Source: Planctomycetes bacterium syqfu (GTDB lineage: Bacteria > Planctomycetota > Phycisphaerae > Phycisphaerales > Phycisphaeraceae). From it: DNA of 64,000 nt. Position 1 is the stretch's first letter, and every line of letters begins with the position of its first letter. Positions 1,654 through 27,803 of the stretch are shown in pieces. Below the pieces are notes generated by a model that saw only the letters and a list, made by a program, of their open reading frames with translations, was not told the DNA's origin and did not search any database. The position numbers were made by a program, and so were the translations under genes. Where the stretch lies: NCBI GenBank assembly GCA_020974905.1, contig CP087563.1, positions 744,001-808,000 on the forward strand, given 5' to 3'.

Positions 1654-2424
1654 ATGATCATACGCCTGATTATCGTCCTTGGATGCTTCACGATGGCTAT
1701 CCCCTGCATGGTTGGCGCAGAAGACCGCCCTGCCAACGGCTTTGTCGTGGTCGAGCTTTTCACATCCGAAGGCTGCTCCAGTTGCCCGCCTGCGGACCGT
1801 GTTTTATCAGAGATTCATCAGCAAGCGGTCAACGAGCAAACACCGGTTTACACCCTGGCCTATCACGTGGACTACTGGGACCGCCTGGGTTGGAAAGACC
1901 GCTTCTCCAGCGAACAATGGACGCAGCGTCAATACCAATACGCCAAAGCAATGCGAAGTCAGCAGGTCTATACACCTCAAATGATCATCAACGGTCAACA
2001 TGCTTTCGTCGGATCACGCAAAGCAACCGCAAAAAAATATATCAAGTCGGAACTGGCGAAAAAAACAATCGTGAATATGGAATTGGGCTTCTCCAAACAA
2101 AGTGACGAAGCTGCAGAGCTAGTCACCGTGAGTTGGCAGATTCATCCCCTGCCACCCAATGCACAACTGCATCTTGTTCTGGCAGAAGACCAACTCAAAA
2201 CGAATGTCCGCCGCGGTGAGAACTCCGGCAAACAACTTCACCATAATGGTGTCGTGCGCAACATGCAAACGATCAATCCCATCAACACGCAAGGTAAAAC
2301 CACGATCACCCTCCCCAAAGAAGTTAACCGTGGCAACTGTCGGATCATTGGTTTATTGCAGGATCAAGAGAGCATGCGGATCATGGCAGCCAAACAGTTA
2401 TCACTTCAACCAATCCACGAGTAA
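1654..2424 (+). CDS. Secreted thioredoxin-like protein, DUF1223 family
   Basis: 256 residues from the ATG at 1654. This start puts a good signal peptide at the very N-terminus (MIIRLIIVLGCFTMAIPC..., cleavage likely near VGAED); upstream in-frame starts would prepend a polar segment. The hallmark is VVELFTSEGCSSCPPADRVL, with the CxxC pair in a thioredoxin-like fold, followed by YHVDYWDRLGWKD and YTPQMIINGQ, all typical of DUF1223. Family members are thought to be periplasmic redox or chaperone-like proteins, with no settled reaction. It stands alone between two minus-strand units. Confidence 0.8.
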   Translation: MIIRLIIVLGCFTMAIPCMVGAEDRPANGFVVVELFTSEGCSSCPPADRVLSEIHQQAVNEQTPVYTLAYHVDYWDRLGWKDRFSSEQWTQRQYQYAKAMRSQQVYTPQMIINGQHAFVGSRKATAKKYIKSELAKKTIVNMELGFSKQSDEAAELVTVSWQIHPLPPNAQLHLVLAEDQLKTNVRRGENSGKQLHHNGVVRNMQTINPINTQGKTTITLPKEVNRGNCRIIGLLQDQESMRIMAAKQLSLQPIHE

Positions 2425-2484
2425 GCAAACCGAATGGTTATTTTAAACCATTGAGGCCTTGCTGAAATCGATGAGAAAGACGTA

Positions 2485-2994
2485 TTACTCGGTATTTTCA
2501 GACATAGATTGACGCCTGCCGATTGCTGCTTTGGTCATCTTGAACAGGACGACAAGTGATCCGATGAAGATCAATGTAGACAGCAGCAATTTTAAGACGA
2601 GTTCCATCGTGGTCTGAGCGATGACCCCAAACGTTGTTGCTCCCAGAAATCCCCAACCGTGTGTTGCCATGTATTGATCCAGTGCGATCAGTGAAATCAA
2701 GCCGGAAAACAACATGATGGGTCCGAGGATCAACCATGCCCCGAGGACAACAATGGGCTTGGAGGTGATCTCCGGCGTGAGGCGTCGAGCGCAGAACCCC
2801 ATGCCATAGATTCGTGACATGGGATCGATCATGGCAGTAGCAGTGACGGGGCCACCACAATTGGGGCAGAGTTGATCCAGCTCAGTCATCTTGTGTGCAC
2901 AATGCGGGCAGATGACATTGGGTTGCATTGATTCAGGCAAATGCTCAACGTCGGCTTGCGGATCAAGTTCATCCATGTTTTGTTGATGATTCAT
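2485..2994 (-). CDS. Zinc-ribbon membrane protein
   Basis: 169 residues from the ATG at 2994, which follows AAAGGA; the longer frame would add an unlikely leader. Residues about 26-50 form a zinc ribbon (CPHC ... LCPNCGG). Two or three transmembrane helices follow (IVVLGAWLILGPIMLFSGLISLIAL and LVLKLLLSTLIFIGSLVVLF). It is the last gene of the nfeD-flotillin-zinc ribbon run on the minus strand. Function unknown; the ribbon probably faces the cytoplasm. Confidence 0.6.
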   Translation of the reverse strand: MNHQQNMDELDPQADVEHLPESMQPNVICPHCAHKMTELDQLCPNCGGPVTATAMIDPMSRIYGMGFCARRLTPEITSKPIVVLGAWLILGPIMLFSGLISLIALDQYMATHGWGFLGATTFGVIAQTTMELVLKLLLSTLIFIGSLVVLFKMTKAAIGRRQSMSENTE

Positions 2995-3119
2995 GGTCGT
3001 CACATCCTTTGAGATACATGCAACACGGTGCTGATATAGAGAATCTGACGGATCAATAAGCGTTGAGCTTACCAACCCGTCAGATTCGTCGTGTATTCAT
3101 TGCGTCCGGACTTGCATCG

Positions 3120-4775
3120 TTACGCAGACTTGTCCGATTCGGGTTTGGGATTGTTCATCGCCGGTTTGTTCTTGGCCGACTTTTCTTCCTTGGCCTGCGA
3201 GACTTTACCCATGTATTCGGGCAGTTCGATGCCTGCCTGCTGAGCCAACTCGTGGATGGGGGGCAGGGAGCCGATGAGCCCCTTGAGGAAGTTGGAGGTC
3301 GAACCGCCCATACCGTTGGCATCGCTGCCGTTGGCACCTGAGTCCCAGACGGTGATCTTGTCGATCTTGAGATTCTGGATGGCTTTGACCTGTTCGGAGA
3401 CCAGTTGGGGCAACTGTTCGATGATCAGCAGTGACGGGGCAATGTCCTTGCGATCGCCACAGATGCGAAGCAGGTTTTCGTAACCCTGTGCTTTGGACAT
3501 GAGGACCTGCTGGATACCTTCTGCTTCGGCCTTGTACTTGGCCAAAGTGGCGTCGGCCTGACCTTGAGCGATGCGACGAATACGATCGGCCTCGGCTTCG
3601 GCATCGATCTCGATTTTCTTCTTCTCGATTTCCTGGAGAACGATCTGTTCCTTCTCCAACCGTGCCTGCTCACGTTCACGTTCTGCAAGTAACACGTCAC
3701 GCTGAGCATTGGCCATGGCAACTTCACCACGACGCTTGGCATCTGCGCGACGTTCTTCAAGGGTGGCTTCATAGTCCGCAATCGATGCCTTGGATTCGTT
3801 TTCACCCGACACCGCACCAGCTTCCAGTGAGGCAACCTTCACACGCTGATTTGACTCGGCTTCCTTCTTACCCTGAACGGCCAAAGCAGTCTGCTCGGCA
3901 ACGGCGATCTCGCGTTCACGGGCGGCGGAAGCTTCACCTGCAACACCAGCAGCTTCCAACTGAGCCACCTTGATGCGGCGATCTCGTTCGGCTTCCTTCT
4001 CACCAATAGCACCCTGTGCGGTCTGCTCGGCAACGCGGACATTCTTCTCACGGTTGGCGGTCGCGGTACCGATGGCACCTTCACGCAACGCGTTGGACTT
4101 GTCGATCTCAGCCTGGTTGATGGCTTCGGCAGCGGCTTTCTGGCCCAACGCTTCGATGTAGCCCGACTCATCCGTGATGTCACGAATGTTCACGTTGATC
4201 ATTTCAAGACCGATTTTGTTCAGTTCAAAGTTCACGTTCTTGTTCACAAGATCAAGGAACTTTTCACGGTCCTGGTTGATTTCTTCAATCGAAAGCGTTG
4301 CGATGACCAAACGCATCTGGCCGAGAATGATGTCCCGGGATTGCGTGGCAATGTCGCGTTCAGCCAACCCAAGCAAACGCTCTGCAGCATTGTTCATGAT
4401 GTCCGGCTGCGTGGAGATACCAATCGTAAACGTCGAAGGCACGTTCACACGAATATTCTTCTTGGACAACGCACTGGACAATTCAATGTCAATGGTGATC
4501 GGTTCAAGAGAGAGGTATTGGTAGTCCTGAACCAACGGCCAAACGAAGACACCACCACCGTGCATACACTTGGCGGTTCGCTGCCCACCGACACGACCGT
4601 AGATAACCAACACACGGTTGGATGGACATCGTTTGTACTGGCGTACGACAACGACCATGGTGACCACAAGCAGCAGGACAAAGAGTCCAGCAAGGATGAG
4701 TATCCCCAATCCCTGTGCTGCGCGAGAACTTTGTGCCAACATCATGATGCTGGCTAACGACAATGCATGCGTCAT
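3120..4775 (-). CDS. Flotillin-like SPFH-domain membrane scaffold
   Basis: 551 residues. One N-terminal membrane helix (about 20-45) is followed by the basic CPSNRVLVIYGRVGG segment, an SPFH/band-7 domain to about 230, and a long Ala/Glu/Arg-rich coiled coil to about 430 with the usual EAEADRIRRIAQGQADA type of sequence. The coiled coil holds three or four degenerate repeats of about 25-28 residues around VAEQTA...EKEAE. Flotillins of this kind organise membrane microdomains, often with an NfeD partner; an nfeD-like gene lies just upstream (4959-5582) in the same direction. The C-terminus is Lys/Ser/Pro-rich and probably disordered. Confidence 0.88.
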   Translation of the reverse strand: MTHALSLASIMMLAQSSRAAQGLGILILAGLFVLLLVVTMVVVVRQYKRCPSNRVLVIYGRVGGQRTAKCMHGGGVFVWPLVQDYQYLSLEPITIDIELSSALSKKNIRVNVPSTFTIGISTQPDIMNNAAERLLGLAERDIATQSRDIILGQMRLVIATLSIEEINQDREKFLDLVNKNVNFELNKIGLEMINVNIRDITDESGYIEALGQKAAAEAINQAEIDKSNALREGAIGTATANREKNVRVAEQTAQGAIGEKEAERDRRIKVAQLEAAGVAGEASAAREREIAVAEQTALAVQGKKEAESNQRVKVASLEAGAVSGENESKASIADYEATLEERRADAKRRGEVAMANAQRDVLLAEREREQARLEKEQIVLQEIEKKKIEIDAEAEADRIRRIAQGQADATLAKYKAEAEGIQQVLMSKAQGYENLLRICGDRKDIAPSLLIIEQLPQLVSEQVKAIQNLKIDKITVWDSGANGSDANGMGGSTSNFLKGLIGSLPPIHELAQQAGIELPEYMGKVSQAKEEKSAKNKPAMNNPKPESDKSA

Positions 4776-18397: not shown

Positions 18398-19780
18398 TTA
18401 TTTGAGCCCGTATTCCTTGAGTTTTCGATAGAGCGTACGTTCGCCGATCCCAAGCATCTTGGCAGCGGCTTCGCGGTTACCTGCATGGATTCGCAGGGCT
18501 TCGCGGATGGCTTGTTTTTCCAGTTGGTCCAGACTCATGCCACTCTTGATTTCAGCGACAGGACCGTTGGAGGCCCCTGCTGCCGGACGCATTTCCATAG
18601 GCAGGTGACGCGGTTCAAGTCGGTCACCATCACAAACCACCACCATCTGTTGAATGGTATTGATGAGTTGTCGGACATTGCCCGGCCAGTTGTAAGCCTG
18701 CAGTGCTGCCATGGTGTCTTCGTCGACCGTGGGCGATTCCATGTTGGCCTGGGCTGCAAATTTGGGGATGTAATGGGCAACGAGCAGCGGGATGTCTTCG
18801 GTGCGTTCACGCAAGGCTGGCAGATGCAACTCCACGCCACGAATGCGGAAGTACAGGTCACCGCGGAATTCCTTTTCCTCGACGCGTTTGGCAAGGTCAT
18901 GATTCGTCGCTGAAACCAGTCGGACATCCACATGTTTGGGTTCGTTGGCACCGACACGCACCACTTCGCCACTCTCCAACACACGCAGCAACTTGGCTTG
19001 CATCGCAGCAGGCATGTCACCGATTTCATCAAGGAACAACGTACCTTTGTCAGCAAACTCAAAGACGCCCTGCCGATCGCGTTCAGCATTGGTAAACGCG
19101 CCTCGGACATGACCGAAGAGTTCACTTTCCAAAATGCCTTCGGACAAGCCTGCACAGTTCACTGGCTTGAAGGTTCGCTTGGAACGCGGTGAGTTCTGAT
19201 GGATCGCCTGGGCAATGAGTTCCTTGCCGGTCCCCGATTCGCCGGTGATGAGCACGGGGATATTGCTGTTAGCGACCTGCTTGATTTTCACCAGCAGATC
19301 ACGAATCGCAGGCGACTTGCCGACGATGCCTTCCAGACCGTACTGCTCGTCAAGGCGTTCCTGTAACGTCGCATTCTGACTGCGGAGCATCACCTCGCGT
19401 AAGGCGTTGGAACAGAGTGTGCGGAAGTTGTCCAAGTCCAGTGGCTTTTCGATGAAGTCATACGCCCCACCACGGATGGCCTGCTTGGCGGTGGGTACAT
19501 CGCCATGCGCGGTGACCATGATCGTCTGGGCATTTTCCTGGGTCTGACGGGCACAGGCTAAAACCTGCTGACCATCATCTTCATCGTCCATCACCAGGTC
19601 GGTGACCACCAGGTCAAATCGCCCGTGTTCCAGTTCATCCTTGGCAGACTTCAGGTCATGGACCACGGTACAGACATGCCCCAGTCGACGCAGAGCCTCT
19701 GCCATCACTTCAGCATGGGAGTCCTCGTCGTCGACAATGAGTATCTGTGCAGTCGGAATGTCGTTATGTTCGCTTTTCAT
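18398..19780 (-). CDS. NtrC-family sigma-54-dependent response regulator
   Basis: 460 residues: receiver domain (1-125; acidic pocket VDDED at about 16-20, phospho-acceptor Asp61 in VVTDLVM, THA-type Thr and EKP Lys present), AAA+ domain (about 155-390; Walker A GESGTGKE, Walker B TLFLDEIGD, arginine fingers in FRGDLYFRI) and a Fis-type HTH at the C-terminus (NREAAAKMLGIGERTLYRKLKE). The sigma-54 contact loop reads GAFTNA instead of the canonical GAFTGA. No histidine kinase is adjacent, so the partner is unknown. It activates sigma-54 promoters if the variant loop is functional. Confidence 0.9.
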   Translation of the reverse strand: MKSEHNDIPTAQILIVDDEDSHAEVMAEALRRLGHVCTVVHDLKSAKDELEHGRFDLVVTDLVMDDEDDGQQVLACARQTQENAQTIMVTAHGDVPTAKQAIRGGAYDFIEKPLDLDNFRTLCSNALREVMLRSQNATLQERLDEQYGLEGIVGKSPAIRDLLVKIKQVANSNIPVLITGESGTGKELIAQAIHQNSPRSKRTFKPVNCAGLSEGILESELFGHVRGAFTNAERDRQGVFEFADKGTLFLDEIGDMPAAMQAKLLRVLESGEVVRVGANEPKHVDVRLVSATNHDLAKRVEEKEFRGDLYFRIRGVELHLPALRERTEDIPLLVAHYIPKFAAQANMESPTVDEDTMAALQAYNWPGNVRQLINTIQQMVVVCDGDRLEPRHLPMEMRPAAGASNGPVAEIKSGMSLDQLEKQAIREALRIHAGNREAAAKMLGIGERTLYRKLKEYGLK

Positions 19781-20846: not shown

Positions 20847-22337
20847 ATGGATATCAAGCACGCCCGTTATCGCAATCAGACCATCGCGGATTTTGTCCGG
20901 CAACTGCTCTACACGCCCAAGAGTAAACGCCCCGAGCAAATCGCCCGTGCCGAGGTATTGCATGACCTGATCAACCCGGATCAGAATTACCCCTTCGACT
21001 TTATCAACTACCGTATCACCGGCTATCACAGTGAATCGGAATTTGACGAAGCCACCATCCTTGTCGGTGAAGCGTTGCTACCCGACCTGCGGACCGCCAT
21101 TGAAGAACTCTGCTTAAACACCGACACACTGCCCGGCAAGGAACCGATGACCGACCTTGCGACGTTGGCTAAACAACTCAACGTCAGCACCAAGACCATC
21201 CATCGTTGGCGGGACATGGGCCTGCGAAGTCGCTGGTACAAACCACCCGGACATAAGCGCATGATTCTCGGGTTTACGCCCTCTGCCATCGACACCTTCG
21301 ACAAACGACATCCGGGTAAAATCAAACAGGCCACCGAACGTCAGCAAATGTCGACTGATGATGTCGATCAACTCATTGCTGATGCACGCCAACTCACAGC
21401 CGATGATCCGACGTTGAGTTTGAATCAGGTTGCATCCAAGCTCTCAAAGCAGACCGGTCGCCCCCTGCAGACCATCCGCGTACAACTGCAAAAATACGAT
21501 CAGGCCCACCCGGATCACCCCCTGTTTCCTGATCATCACGGTCCACTGACGGATCGACAGGCAAGACAGATCGCCCGACTCCAGCAGCGTGGCATGTCCA
21601 CCAGTGAACTTGCAAAAATGTTCGGCAAGACACCGTCGACCATCCGCCGCGCCATTCTCAATGCGCGACTTCAGGTCTTTAAGCGATTAAACATCGACCC
21701 GGCCAAGTTTCAGGAATGTTACACCGATCCGGCCAAGGTCAAACGGTATCGGCAGTTCAAAATCCGCGACACCGATTGGCAATCGCCCGACACCCATGCC
21801 AGCAGTGATTTGCCTGTAGTCTTACACGAATGGTTTTCGATGATACAGCTTAAACCCGCTGTCAAACTCCAGGCTTTTGAGCAGTATCAGTATCTACGCT
21901 ATGCCGCCAAATATGCGATCGATCAGCTTCAACCCAATACCTGTACGACAACGCAAATTAAAGCCATCACCGCTGACATCAAACAGGCAGGCCAACTCAA
22001 GGACCTGCTTGCAGCATCCAGTCTGCCTGTTGTGATGTCCGTTGCGCGGCATCACATGGACCACCTCGACGAACAGTCGGTTTACATTCTCCAGGACCTG
22101 TTGATTTTAGGTTGTCAGATTCTTTTTGGTGAACTGGATTTGTTTGACCCGCATCGCAAGCATGCCTTTGACACGTTTCTTTCATGGCGACTCCAACGCA
22201 GCTTCGCAACATGGCTCAGTGATCAACACCGTGCCAAACGCGCGGTGAAGCGCATGACACCCGAAGAAGTCATCCGCCGAATCCGCTCGCAGGCGATACC
22301 GTTTGGGATCAAGTTGCCGGCGATGATTGAAGTGTGA
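20847..22337 (+). CDS. Multi-HTH protein with sigma-70 region-2-like C-terminus
   Basis: 496 residues from the ATG at 20847, directly after the mqnA stop. Reading along it: a novel alpha-helical N-terminus (1-90); a MerR/excisionase-like helix-turn-helix (about 102-140, DLATLAKQLNVSTKTIHRWR); a Gln-rich linker; a second HTH (about 240-275, MSTSELAKMFGKTPSTIRRA); and a C-terminal part (about 375-470) in which SLPVVMSVARHHMDHL, LQDLLILGCQILFGELDLFD and AFDTFLSWRLQRSF run parallel to sigma-70 region 2 (core-binding and -10 recognition helices). A region 4 is not obvious. Its role is inferred only: a sigma-like transcription factor. It might instead be a DNA-binding protein that merely resembles region 2. 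Confidence 0.6.
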   Translation: MDIKHARYRNQTIADFVRQLLYTPKSKRPEQIARAEVLHDLINPDQNYPFDFINYRITGYHSESEFDEATILVGEALLPDLRTAIEELCLNTDTLPGKEPMTDLATLAKQLNVSTKTIHRWRDMGLRSRWYKPPGHKRMILGFTPSAIDTFDKRHPGKIKQATERQQMSTDDVDQLIADARQLTADDPTLSLNQVASKLSKQTGRPLQTIRVQLQKYDQAHPDHPLFPDHHGPLTDRQARQIARLQQRGMSTSELAKMFGKTPSTIRRAILNARLQVFKRLNIDPAKFQECYTDPAKVKRYRQFKIRDTDWQSPDTHASSDLPVVLHEWFSMIQLKPAVKLQAFEQYQYLRYAAKYAIDQLQPNTCTTTQIKAITADIKQAGQLKDLLAASSLPVVMSVARHHMDHLDEQSVYILQDLLILGCQILFGELDLFDPHRKHAFDTFLSWRLQRSFATWLSDQHRAKRAVKRMTPEEVIRRIRSQAIPFGIKLPAMIEV

Positions 22338-22466
22338 TTCGGCTTACATCAACATGCTACGTCATCAATCCCGGTCAGGATGACCGGTCTATATAGCCGA
22401 GTCATCTTGACTCGGTTGGACATCCAATCATTCTGGTGATGGTTTTTACGTCGGTAAATGTTTCCT

Positions 22467-22556
22467 GTCATTCCCACGCCCGGGAAGTTGGGAATCCAGT
22501 GGCATGCTGTTGACGCTTGCAGGTTCCACTGGACTCCCGCCTGCGCGGGAGTGACG
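22467..22556. repeat. Palindromic intergenic element, copy 3 of 4
   Basis: About 90 bp, GTCATTCCC at the left and CCCGCCTGCGCGGGAGTGAC at the right, with CCAGTGGCATGCTGTTGACG inside. The left arm is diverged (CACGCCCGGG). It sits in the gap between the sigma-like gene and moaC, which are convergent. The rest of that gap (22338-22466, 22557-22609) holds nothing recognisable apart from a short GACTCGGT/ACCGGTC-type inverted stretch near 22380-22415. Confidence 0.82.
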
Positions 22557-22609
22557 GATATAAAAAACACCTGTAACGATGGGTTATTCAAAGGAGCTTA
22601 TTACAAGTC

Positions 22610-27287: not shown

Positions 27288-27803
27288 ATGCAACAGTCGC
27301 TGAATCCCAATGCAACCACGTGGCATATCACATTCGGGACTTACGCAACACGTTTACACGGTGATGATCGTCCGACAGTTGACCGTGAGCAGAACACTCG
27401 GGGACAGGATTTTATCTGGCACGATGATGAACGACTCAAGGATGCACATGACAAACGCAAAGGTGATGCTGTTTATCTGACTGCTGCACAACGTGCGGTG
27501 ATTGAATCGTTGATTCCCGGCATCTGTGAACGTGGCGGTTGGGAATACCGCATTTGTGCTTCACCGCTTGAAGGTGATCACGTTCATGTCTTACTTGATG
27601 CCAAATGCTCGATTGAACCCGATGCCATTCTCATGTGGCTCAAACGTTGGGTCACTCAAGAATTGAACAAACGTTGGGGTAAACCTGTCACATCCTGGTG
27701 GGCGGAATGTGGATCAACCAAACCGGTGAAAAATCCGACTTATCTGAACAATGTGTATCACTACATCCGTCGACAGCGAACGCTGCCTTTAACTGCGGAG
27801 TAA
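27288..27803 (+). CDS. REP-associated tyrosine transposase (IS200/Y1-like)
   Basis: 171 residues. The HUH-type Y1 domain shows a first strand WHITFGTYATRLHG, the HUH motif as DHVHVLL (about residue 97-103), and the candidate catalytic Tyr in VYHYIRRQR near the C-terminus. It is single-domain, as are RAYTs, and lies exactly between two REP copies. The gene appears intact. Few long homologous insertions are visible in this window, so activity is uncertain. Confidence 0.85.
   Translation: MQQSLNPNATTWHITFGTYATRLHGDDRPTVDREQNTRGQDFIWHDDERLKDAHDKRKGDAVYLTAAQRAVIESLIPGICERGGWEYRICASPLEGDHVHVLLDAKCSIEPDAILMWLKRWVTQELNKRWGKPVTSWWAECGSTKPVKNPTYLNNVYHYIRRQRTLPLTAE

Follow-up and report, generated by a model that had tools for sequence, protein, structure and literature searches.

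The gene at positions 20847..22337 of the forward strand of the window that we analyzed, a 64,000-nucleotide stretch of the genome of Planctomycetes bacterium syqfu (CP087563.1, positions 744,001 to 808,000), encodes a protein of 496 amino acids (ATG at 20847, stop codon at 22335-22337), referred to here as P0001, which, judging by comparison with its relatives, is an extended sigma-70 factor that lost its end. The relatives form a family, delimited by sequence searches, in which an N-terminal module of ~300 residues with helix-turn-helix (HTH) domains precedes sigma-70, and P0001 belongs to it. The descent of P0001 from sigma-70 is, in our view, practically certain. We further think it fairly probable, with much room left for other views, that this descendant, which carries the HTH module and lacks both region 4 and the usual contact with the clamp of RNA polymerase, is now a DNA-binding regulator.

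The sigma part of P0001 comprises residues 320-462 (21804..22232, forward strand), which, by predicted fold and descent, are sigma-70 regions 1.2 and 2 (sigma-2 below). A preliminary description of this DNA had likened the C-terminal helices to sigma-70 region 2 and had named an unrelated C-terminal fold as the outcome that would speak against it; the structure prediction that we ran yielded a sigma fold of regions 1.2 and 2. In the AlphaFold2 model, built from a four-sequence alignment, the C-terminal helices span residues 337-360, 368-391, 393-402, 409-430 and 441-463. The mean pLDDT (predicted local distance difference test score) is 67.7, the first ~100 residues being poor and the 10-residue blocks over 321-460 reaching 71-91. 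A Foldseek search with the whole model gave nothing at E<=0.001, and the best-ranked entries were chains of RNA polymerase/sigma complexes. VIA-align, which is a second look at the Foldseek list and not a new search, aligned 121-141 residues within 320-462 (Z 10.7-12.5, root mean square deviation 2.6-4.2), and 50 of the 50 rows listed were RNA polymerase/sigma complex chains or sigma fragments, a chain being called sigma from the entry title and, for some entries, from phmmer matches to PDB sequences. Since arrangement alone can bring bundles of helices to about Z 13, the case for sigma descent rests on the sequence series described below and not on Z. The model of a relative that possesses region 4 (L034) matched sigma-complex chains at E 2e-7 with a probability of 1.00. 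In direct sequence comparisons, the Pfam family Sigma70_r2 matches residues 391-462 of P0001 with 19.0 bits (E 0.0013), under the 24-bit cut-off, and a 68%-identical relative (L003) with 28.1 bits, over it. The NCBIfam sigma-70 superfamily model matches P0001 in two stretches (6.4e-9, below its cut-off), the better of which is the second HTH domain (237-277) and not the C-terminus, and in a phmmer search of PDB sequences SigA chains match residues 382-478 at E 0.014 or worse.

The preliminary description had proposed a search for homologues, and these turned out to be more frequent than chance would give: a single-sequence search with P0001 found a match in 55 of 61 genomes, its own included, and one of the six genomes missed (G055) was recovered later by a profile search. 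The 7.38-Mb genome of the bacterium itself contains the sequence once. When 392 genomes of the phylum Planctomycetota were searched with a profile of the N-terminal module, 104 matched at E<=0.001 and 288 did not; 88 of those sampled matched at E<1e-35, and the other 16 matches were mostly short, with G409 (3.4e-16) spanning nearly the whole module. The profile (A5) contains P0001 itself and gave 3.3e-110 with its own genome. In two proteins of 370 residues (L131 and L132, from G185 and G119), the match is limited to roughly the first 85 module positions, which suggests that the first domain of the module can be found separately from the sigma part as well. In the open-access literature that we searched, no description of this N-module sigma family was found.

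Six relatives of P0001 (L034, L030, L035, L106, L108 and L095), all of them outside its own clade (the window family, defined below), carry Sigma70_r2 and Sigma70_r4 over the Pfam cut-offs, in the usual order, after the N-terminal module. The preliminary description had taken the succession of DNA-binding domains first and core-binding domain last for a reversal of the normal sigma order. This interpretation fails, for in many relatives the HTH module is followed by a complete sigma-70 with regions 2 and 4 in their normal succession; a circular permutation or reversed sigma was rejected on the same ground, the second HTH and a true region 4 being present together. In other members of the order to which the bacterium belongs, Pfam finds region 4 and no region 2 in L044 and L052, a region 4 match that falls on the second HTH in L049, region 2 and no region 4 in L003, and no family over its cut-off in L019 and L004. 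Over 52 aligned rows at E<=0.01, region 4 is found in 25, a count that includes matches to the second HTH, and region 2 in 11. The alignment has five invariant columns, all of them inside the N-terminal module.

The history of the loss can be followed on a midpoint-rooted tree of the module from 90 proteins, in which the groups used for counting are our own. The order forms one side of a branch with support 100/99 (53 rows) and contains a sister family, f6 (5 rows, 100/100), a further group of 18 rows (100/98) and the window family, that is, the P0001-containing clade of 30 rows (100/98), which we infer to correspond to the Phycisphaeraceae. Hidden Markov models (HMMs) of regions 2 and 4 were trained on 36 rows from outside the order, leaving aside L117, which makes the scores of those rows dependent on the training, in contrast to the Pfam results. 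With these models, f6 scores 53-93 bits for region 2 and 10-69 bits for region 4, and the group of 18 up to 28 bits for region 4 and under 10 bits for region 2. In the window family, the region 2 score ranges from no match (L043) to 44.8 bits, with 26.4 bits for P0001, and region 4 is absent in 30 of 30 members. The statement of the preliminary description that P0001 has no region 4 was thus borne out: none follows sigma-2 in frame or in the other frames of the fetched loci, and at the place of the linker and region 4 of the relatives there is a short C-terminal tail (22257..22337, forward strand). A frameshift that would have split off region 4 was also considered and rejected, because the fetched loci hold no out-of-frame remnant at E<0.5; a six-frame search of the loci of the 30 window-family members and L117 gave 7.7 bits at best (E 0.69), and ten control loci gave 14-98 bits. 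L117 itself (G330, 2026-3378), which stands outside the order, is without region 4 as well, and its region 2 scores weakly (25.6 bits); its loss of region 4 apparently is separate from that in the window family.

The residues of sigma-2 changed as well. D403, Q406 and E407 of the Escherichia coli protein are taken here as the residues facing the clamp, and F427, Y430 and W433 as the aromatic residues of -10 recognition and melting; this numbering was placed on our alignment by the DLIQEG-type motif. In P0001, helix 2.2 reads DLLILG (residues 417-422), ELVSDG being common in relatives outside the order, and positions 403, 406, 407 and 408 are D, I, L and G. An acidic residue at 407 is present in 36 of the 37 proteins outside the order (36/36 without L117), in four of the five members of f6, in 2/30 of the window family and in none of the 18 other order members. 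The glycine at 408 occurs in 36/36 proteins outside the order (without L117), 5/5 of f6, 21/30 of the window family and 0/19 of the others taken with L117; for the tryptophan at 433 the corresponding numbers are 32/36, 5/5, 16/30 and 0/19. Among the 30 window-family members, the aromatic residues at 427, 430 and 433 are kept in 24, 18 and 16, respectively. According to a review (PMC4598750), the main contact of sigma-2 with RNA polymerase is between its region 2.2 helix and the coiled coil of beta-prime. The beta-prime clamp contact set of region 2.2 is not kept in P0001 (D, I and L at 403, 406 and 407), and the alignment shows that in the window family helix 2.2 has lost most of its polar contacts; in P0001 the presumed DNA-facing aromatic residues partly remain and hydrophobic residues have taken the place of the polar ones presumed to face the clamp. 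The proposal of a sigma-like factor made in the preliminary description is therefore right as to sigma descent and doubtful as to sigma function, given the loss of the acidic clamp residue and of most polar contacts in helix 2.2.

Selection on sigma-2 was considered at two depths. In pairwise comparisons restricted to a module identity of 0.25-0.60, sigma-2 is more identical than the N-terminal module in all 560 pairs from outside the order and in only 62 of 432 window-family pairs (18/141 in the group of 18 and 4/9 in f6). By this measure, constraint in the window family is shifted from sigma-2 to the module. Between P0001 and L031, the ratio of nonsynonymous to synonymous substitution rates (dN/dS) is 0.073 for the whole protein and 0.026 for the first HTH domain, and the substitution pattern of sigma-2, given below, indicates purifying selection in the genus of P0001 and not junk. 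The shift in identity, taken together with this tight constraint within the genus, implies that the role of sigma-2 here changed rather than ended.

The explanation that we favor runs as follows. P0001 descends from a sigma-70 of the phylum whose regions 1.2, 2 and 4 followed an N-terminal module of ~300 residues with two HTH domains; the ancestor of the window family lost region 4 and, from sigma-2, the standard clamp-contact residues. The HTH domains would now choose the DNA site, the remaining sigma-2 would serve as a protein contact, either with RNA polymerase in a weakened or changed mode or with another partner, and P0001 would no longer act as a sigma factor. Whether a regulator of this kind works in the proposed way we regard as evenly balanced. 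Several observations weigh against this explanation. P0001 keeps F, F and W at positions 427, 430 and 433 (F441, F444 and W447 in its own numbering) and the aspartate at 403 (D417), and some sigma-like contact with DNA and core may hence survive. Its sigma-2 is identical to that of L031 in 93 of 98 residues, with a dN/dS of 0.037, and to that of L003 in 74 of 98 (76%, as against 67% for the whole protein and 77% for the first HTH; dS of sigma-2 is saturated in this pair, which gives no ratio), a degree of conservation that would be superfluous in a dead sigma domain. Training the HMMs on the group outside the order builds in the high scores of that group, and with midpoint rooting a single loss of region 4 assumes that the root lies outside the order. 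Finally, no operator was found upstream of the gene that precedes P0001 in four members of the genus.

The observations on residues and selection lend themselves to a different interpretation, in which P0001 is a working, if unusual, sigma factor: sigma-2 would bind the core and melt a -10-like element, and the N-terminal HTH domains would replace region 4 as the upstream anchor. The sigma-2 fold is intact in the model, F441, F444, W447 and D417 are kept, and sigma-2 is under purifying selection in the genus; there is also a precedent in phage T4 gp55, for which a section of PMC7892883 describes a sigma-R2 homology domain, recognition of a -10-like element and a coactivator, gp33. The same section has gp55 itself contacting the clamp with three acidic residues of its helix H3, however, whereas P0001 lost the acidic residue at 407 to leucine and has isoleucine at 406, and within the window family W433 is found in only 16 of 30 members and an aromatic residue at 430 in 18 of 30. 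We regard a working sigma as unlikely, if worth keeping in mind, and a shade less credible still is its most specific form, a sigma factor back to front in which the C-terminal sigma-2 opens the -10 element and the module takes over upstream recognition from the lost region 4. If true, the latter would make P0001 a cellular stand-alone region-4-free sigma factor with a new promoter geometry. Region 2 exceeds the cut-off at 24 further places in the genome, one of them with inner stops, and region 3 is found at three places, including a 608-residue frame that also has region 2, so another protein can serve as the main sigma factor. Separately, ordinary short sigma-70 paralogues of about 330-420 residues (L055-L058, L060 and L061) were noticed that read TYACRAIL in place of the TYATWWIR of SigA, both tryptophans being replaced; in the one tested, L058, regions 2 and 4 are over the cut-off.

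The altered helix itself could mean that P0001 mimics a sigma factor, its sigma-2 binding an anti-sigma factor or other partner through the hydrophobic face of helix 2.2, away from RNA polymerase. The clamp face DLLILGCQILF is identical in L003 and would fit a buried partner surface, and PhyR, as a passage in PMC8103513 has it, uses a sigma-like domain in an analogous manner; the neighboring genes were compared by clustering, and we regard a mimic as rather improbable. P0001 could also be half of a split sigma factor, contributing region 2 to a second protein with region 4 as in SigO-RsoA of Bacillus subtilis, since sigma-2 without sigma-4 is the condition described for RsoA in that same passage (PMC8103513). 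No region-4-like frame was found in the 64-kb window at E<=0.01 (the best had 0.4 with the family model of region 4), a search confined to the window, and we consider a split sigma quite improbable. That the gene is decaying on its way out of the genome is the least credible of all. Region 4 is missing from the window family, hardly anything remains of region 2 in a different lineage of the order, and six of the 61 genomes had no match (one was found later by profile, and several are incomplete assemblies); against this, no row of the 61-genome search has inner stops, a single row of the 392-genome search (G423) has an inner TGA, and the whole-gene dN/dS of 0.073 relative to L031 already contradicts decay for P0001.

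The module that precedes sigma-2 consists of several parts, all encoded on the forward strand. The N-terminal conserved domain, residues 1-99 (20847..21143), has the motif YP-D-x-RITGY and the glutamate E36, which is invariant in 52/52 rows; with the family alignment, the residues before 91 are the best stretch of none of 21 Pfam families at E<=0.01. The two HTH domains announced by the preliminary description were recovered as Pfam units at about 103-150 and 232-282. The first (residues 103-150, 21153..21296) is a winged HTH of HTH_11/MerR-like type, seen with Pfam and in the AlphaFold2 model, where it has helices at 104-111 and 115-124 and strands at 126-131 and 138-143 with a pLDDT of about 46-61. 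It is followed by a middle helical segment (residues 170-222, 21354..21512), seen in the alignment and the model, in which R211 is invariant in 52/52 rows, and by the second HTH (residues 232-282, 21540..21692), which matches HTH_23 (2.2e-8) and is weakly Sigma70_r4-like too.

Directly upstream of P0001 lies an mqnA-type gene (PF02621; 20030..20845, forward strand; Pfam 142.2 bits with a cut-off of 26, and no NCBIfam match for its product), the stop codon of which ends 1 nucleotide before the ATG at 20847. Because of this spacing, mqnA and P0001 probably are made from one message. The same arrangement, with mqnA directly upstream on the same strand, is shared by 45 of the 53 order loci and by none of the 37 outside the order (24/30 in the window family, 5/5 in f6 and 16/18 in the remaining order loci; L046 was counted by its aligned start, as its longest frame overlaps mqnA). 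The gene is kept in genomes that have no PF02621 match: nine are from the same class but not from the order, two (G038 and G409) from the order, and one (G033) from the window family. The coupling to mqnA stated in the preliminary description thus holds as adjacency; it characterizes the gene arrangement in this taxonomic order and does not prove a role connected with menaquinone, and the idea of a menaquinone-specific regulator is weakened by these genomes. Upstream of mqnA, the sole block conserved in the four genus members is near a divergently oriented gene (18398-19780) for a response regulator that has an AAA+ domain and, by eye, resembles NtrC, and before that gene the block is, by eye, promoter-like (TTGACC...AGACAAT). 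The response-regulator cluster extends over at least 10 loci among the 30 of the window family and over one outside it, a lower bound set by short flanks; for the members outside the order, the widest conserved cluster of neighbors spans nine of them. On the 3' side of P0001, the intergenic stretch 22440-22570 contains what by eye resembles a dispersed repeat (CATTCCCACGCCCGGG... and CCCGCCTGCGCGGGAGTGACGG); an open reading frame at 27288-27803, by eye a transposase associated with repetitive extragenic palindromic (REP) sequences, of IS200 type, may go with it.

To our knowledge, neither phage T4 gp55 nor RsoA of B. subtilis has an HTH module, and gp55 has no region 4. P0001 shares with sigma-70 factors of RpoD/SigA type (Sigma70_r2 PF04542, Sigma70_r4 PF04545) the fold of regions 1.2 and 2 at residues 320-462, and differs from them in adding the N-terminal HTH module, in lacking region 4 and in its altered clamp residues. 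The sigma part of gp55 is likewise a domain of region 2 type (sigma-R2 homology domain) but, according to a section of PMC7892883, the protein is assisted by gp33 and gp45. In SigO-RsoA, regions 2 and 4 are on separate chains, region 2 being assigned to RsoA in a passage of PMC8103513 and the assignment being given in the opposite order in a table of PMC10141391; the two proteins work as a pair, while the 64-kb window yielded no region-4 partner for P0001. A 2024 survey of cyanobacterial sigma-70 proteins describes, in the portion concerned, some with N-terminal accessory domains, others without regions 2 and 4, and one clan with at least region 2 (PMC11119718); these belong to a different phylum and are likened to P0001 by description, not by sequence. 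The best NCBIfam match of the relative L106 is MzaA (NF041931), with 148.2 bits over its sigma part (329-444), far below the 800-bit cut-off, and among six other proteins only the ordinary paralogue L058 has MzaA as its best match.

Since T4 gp55, SigO-RsoA and the cyanobacterial families provide parallels for a sigma-2 that works without a region 4 in its own chain, P0001 is not a wholly new type. What its family offers is a natural gradation that begins with a complete sigma-70 bearing an additional DNA-binding module, continues with a sister family in which both regions can still be recognized, and leads to branches without region 4 or with a worn region 2. This series makes it testable how a sigma factor becomes a different regulator and which of its contacts are given up first.
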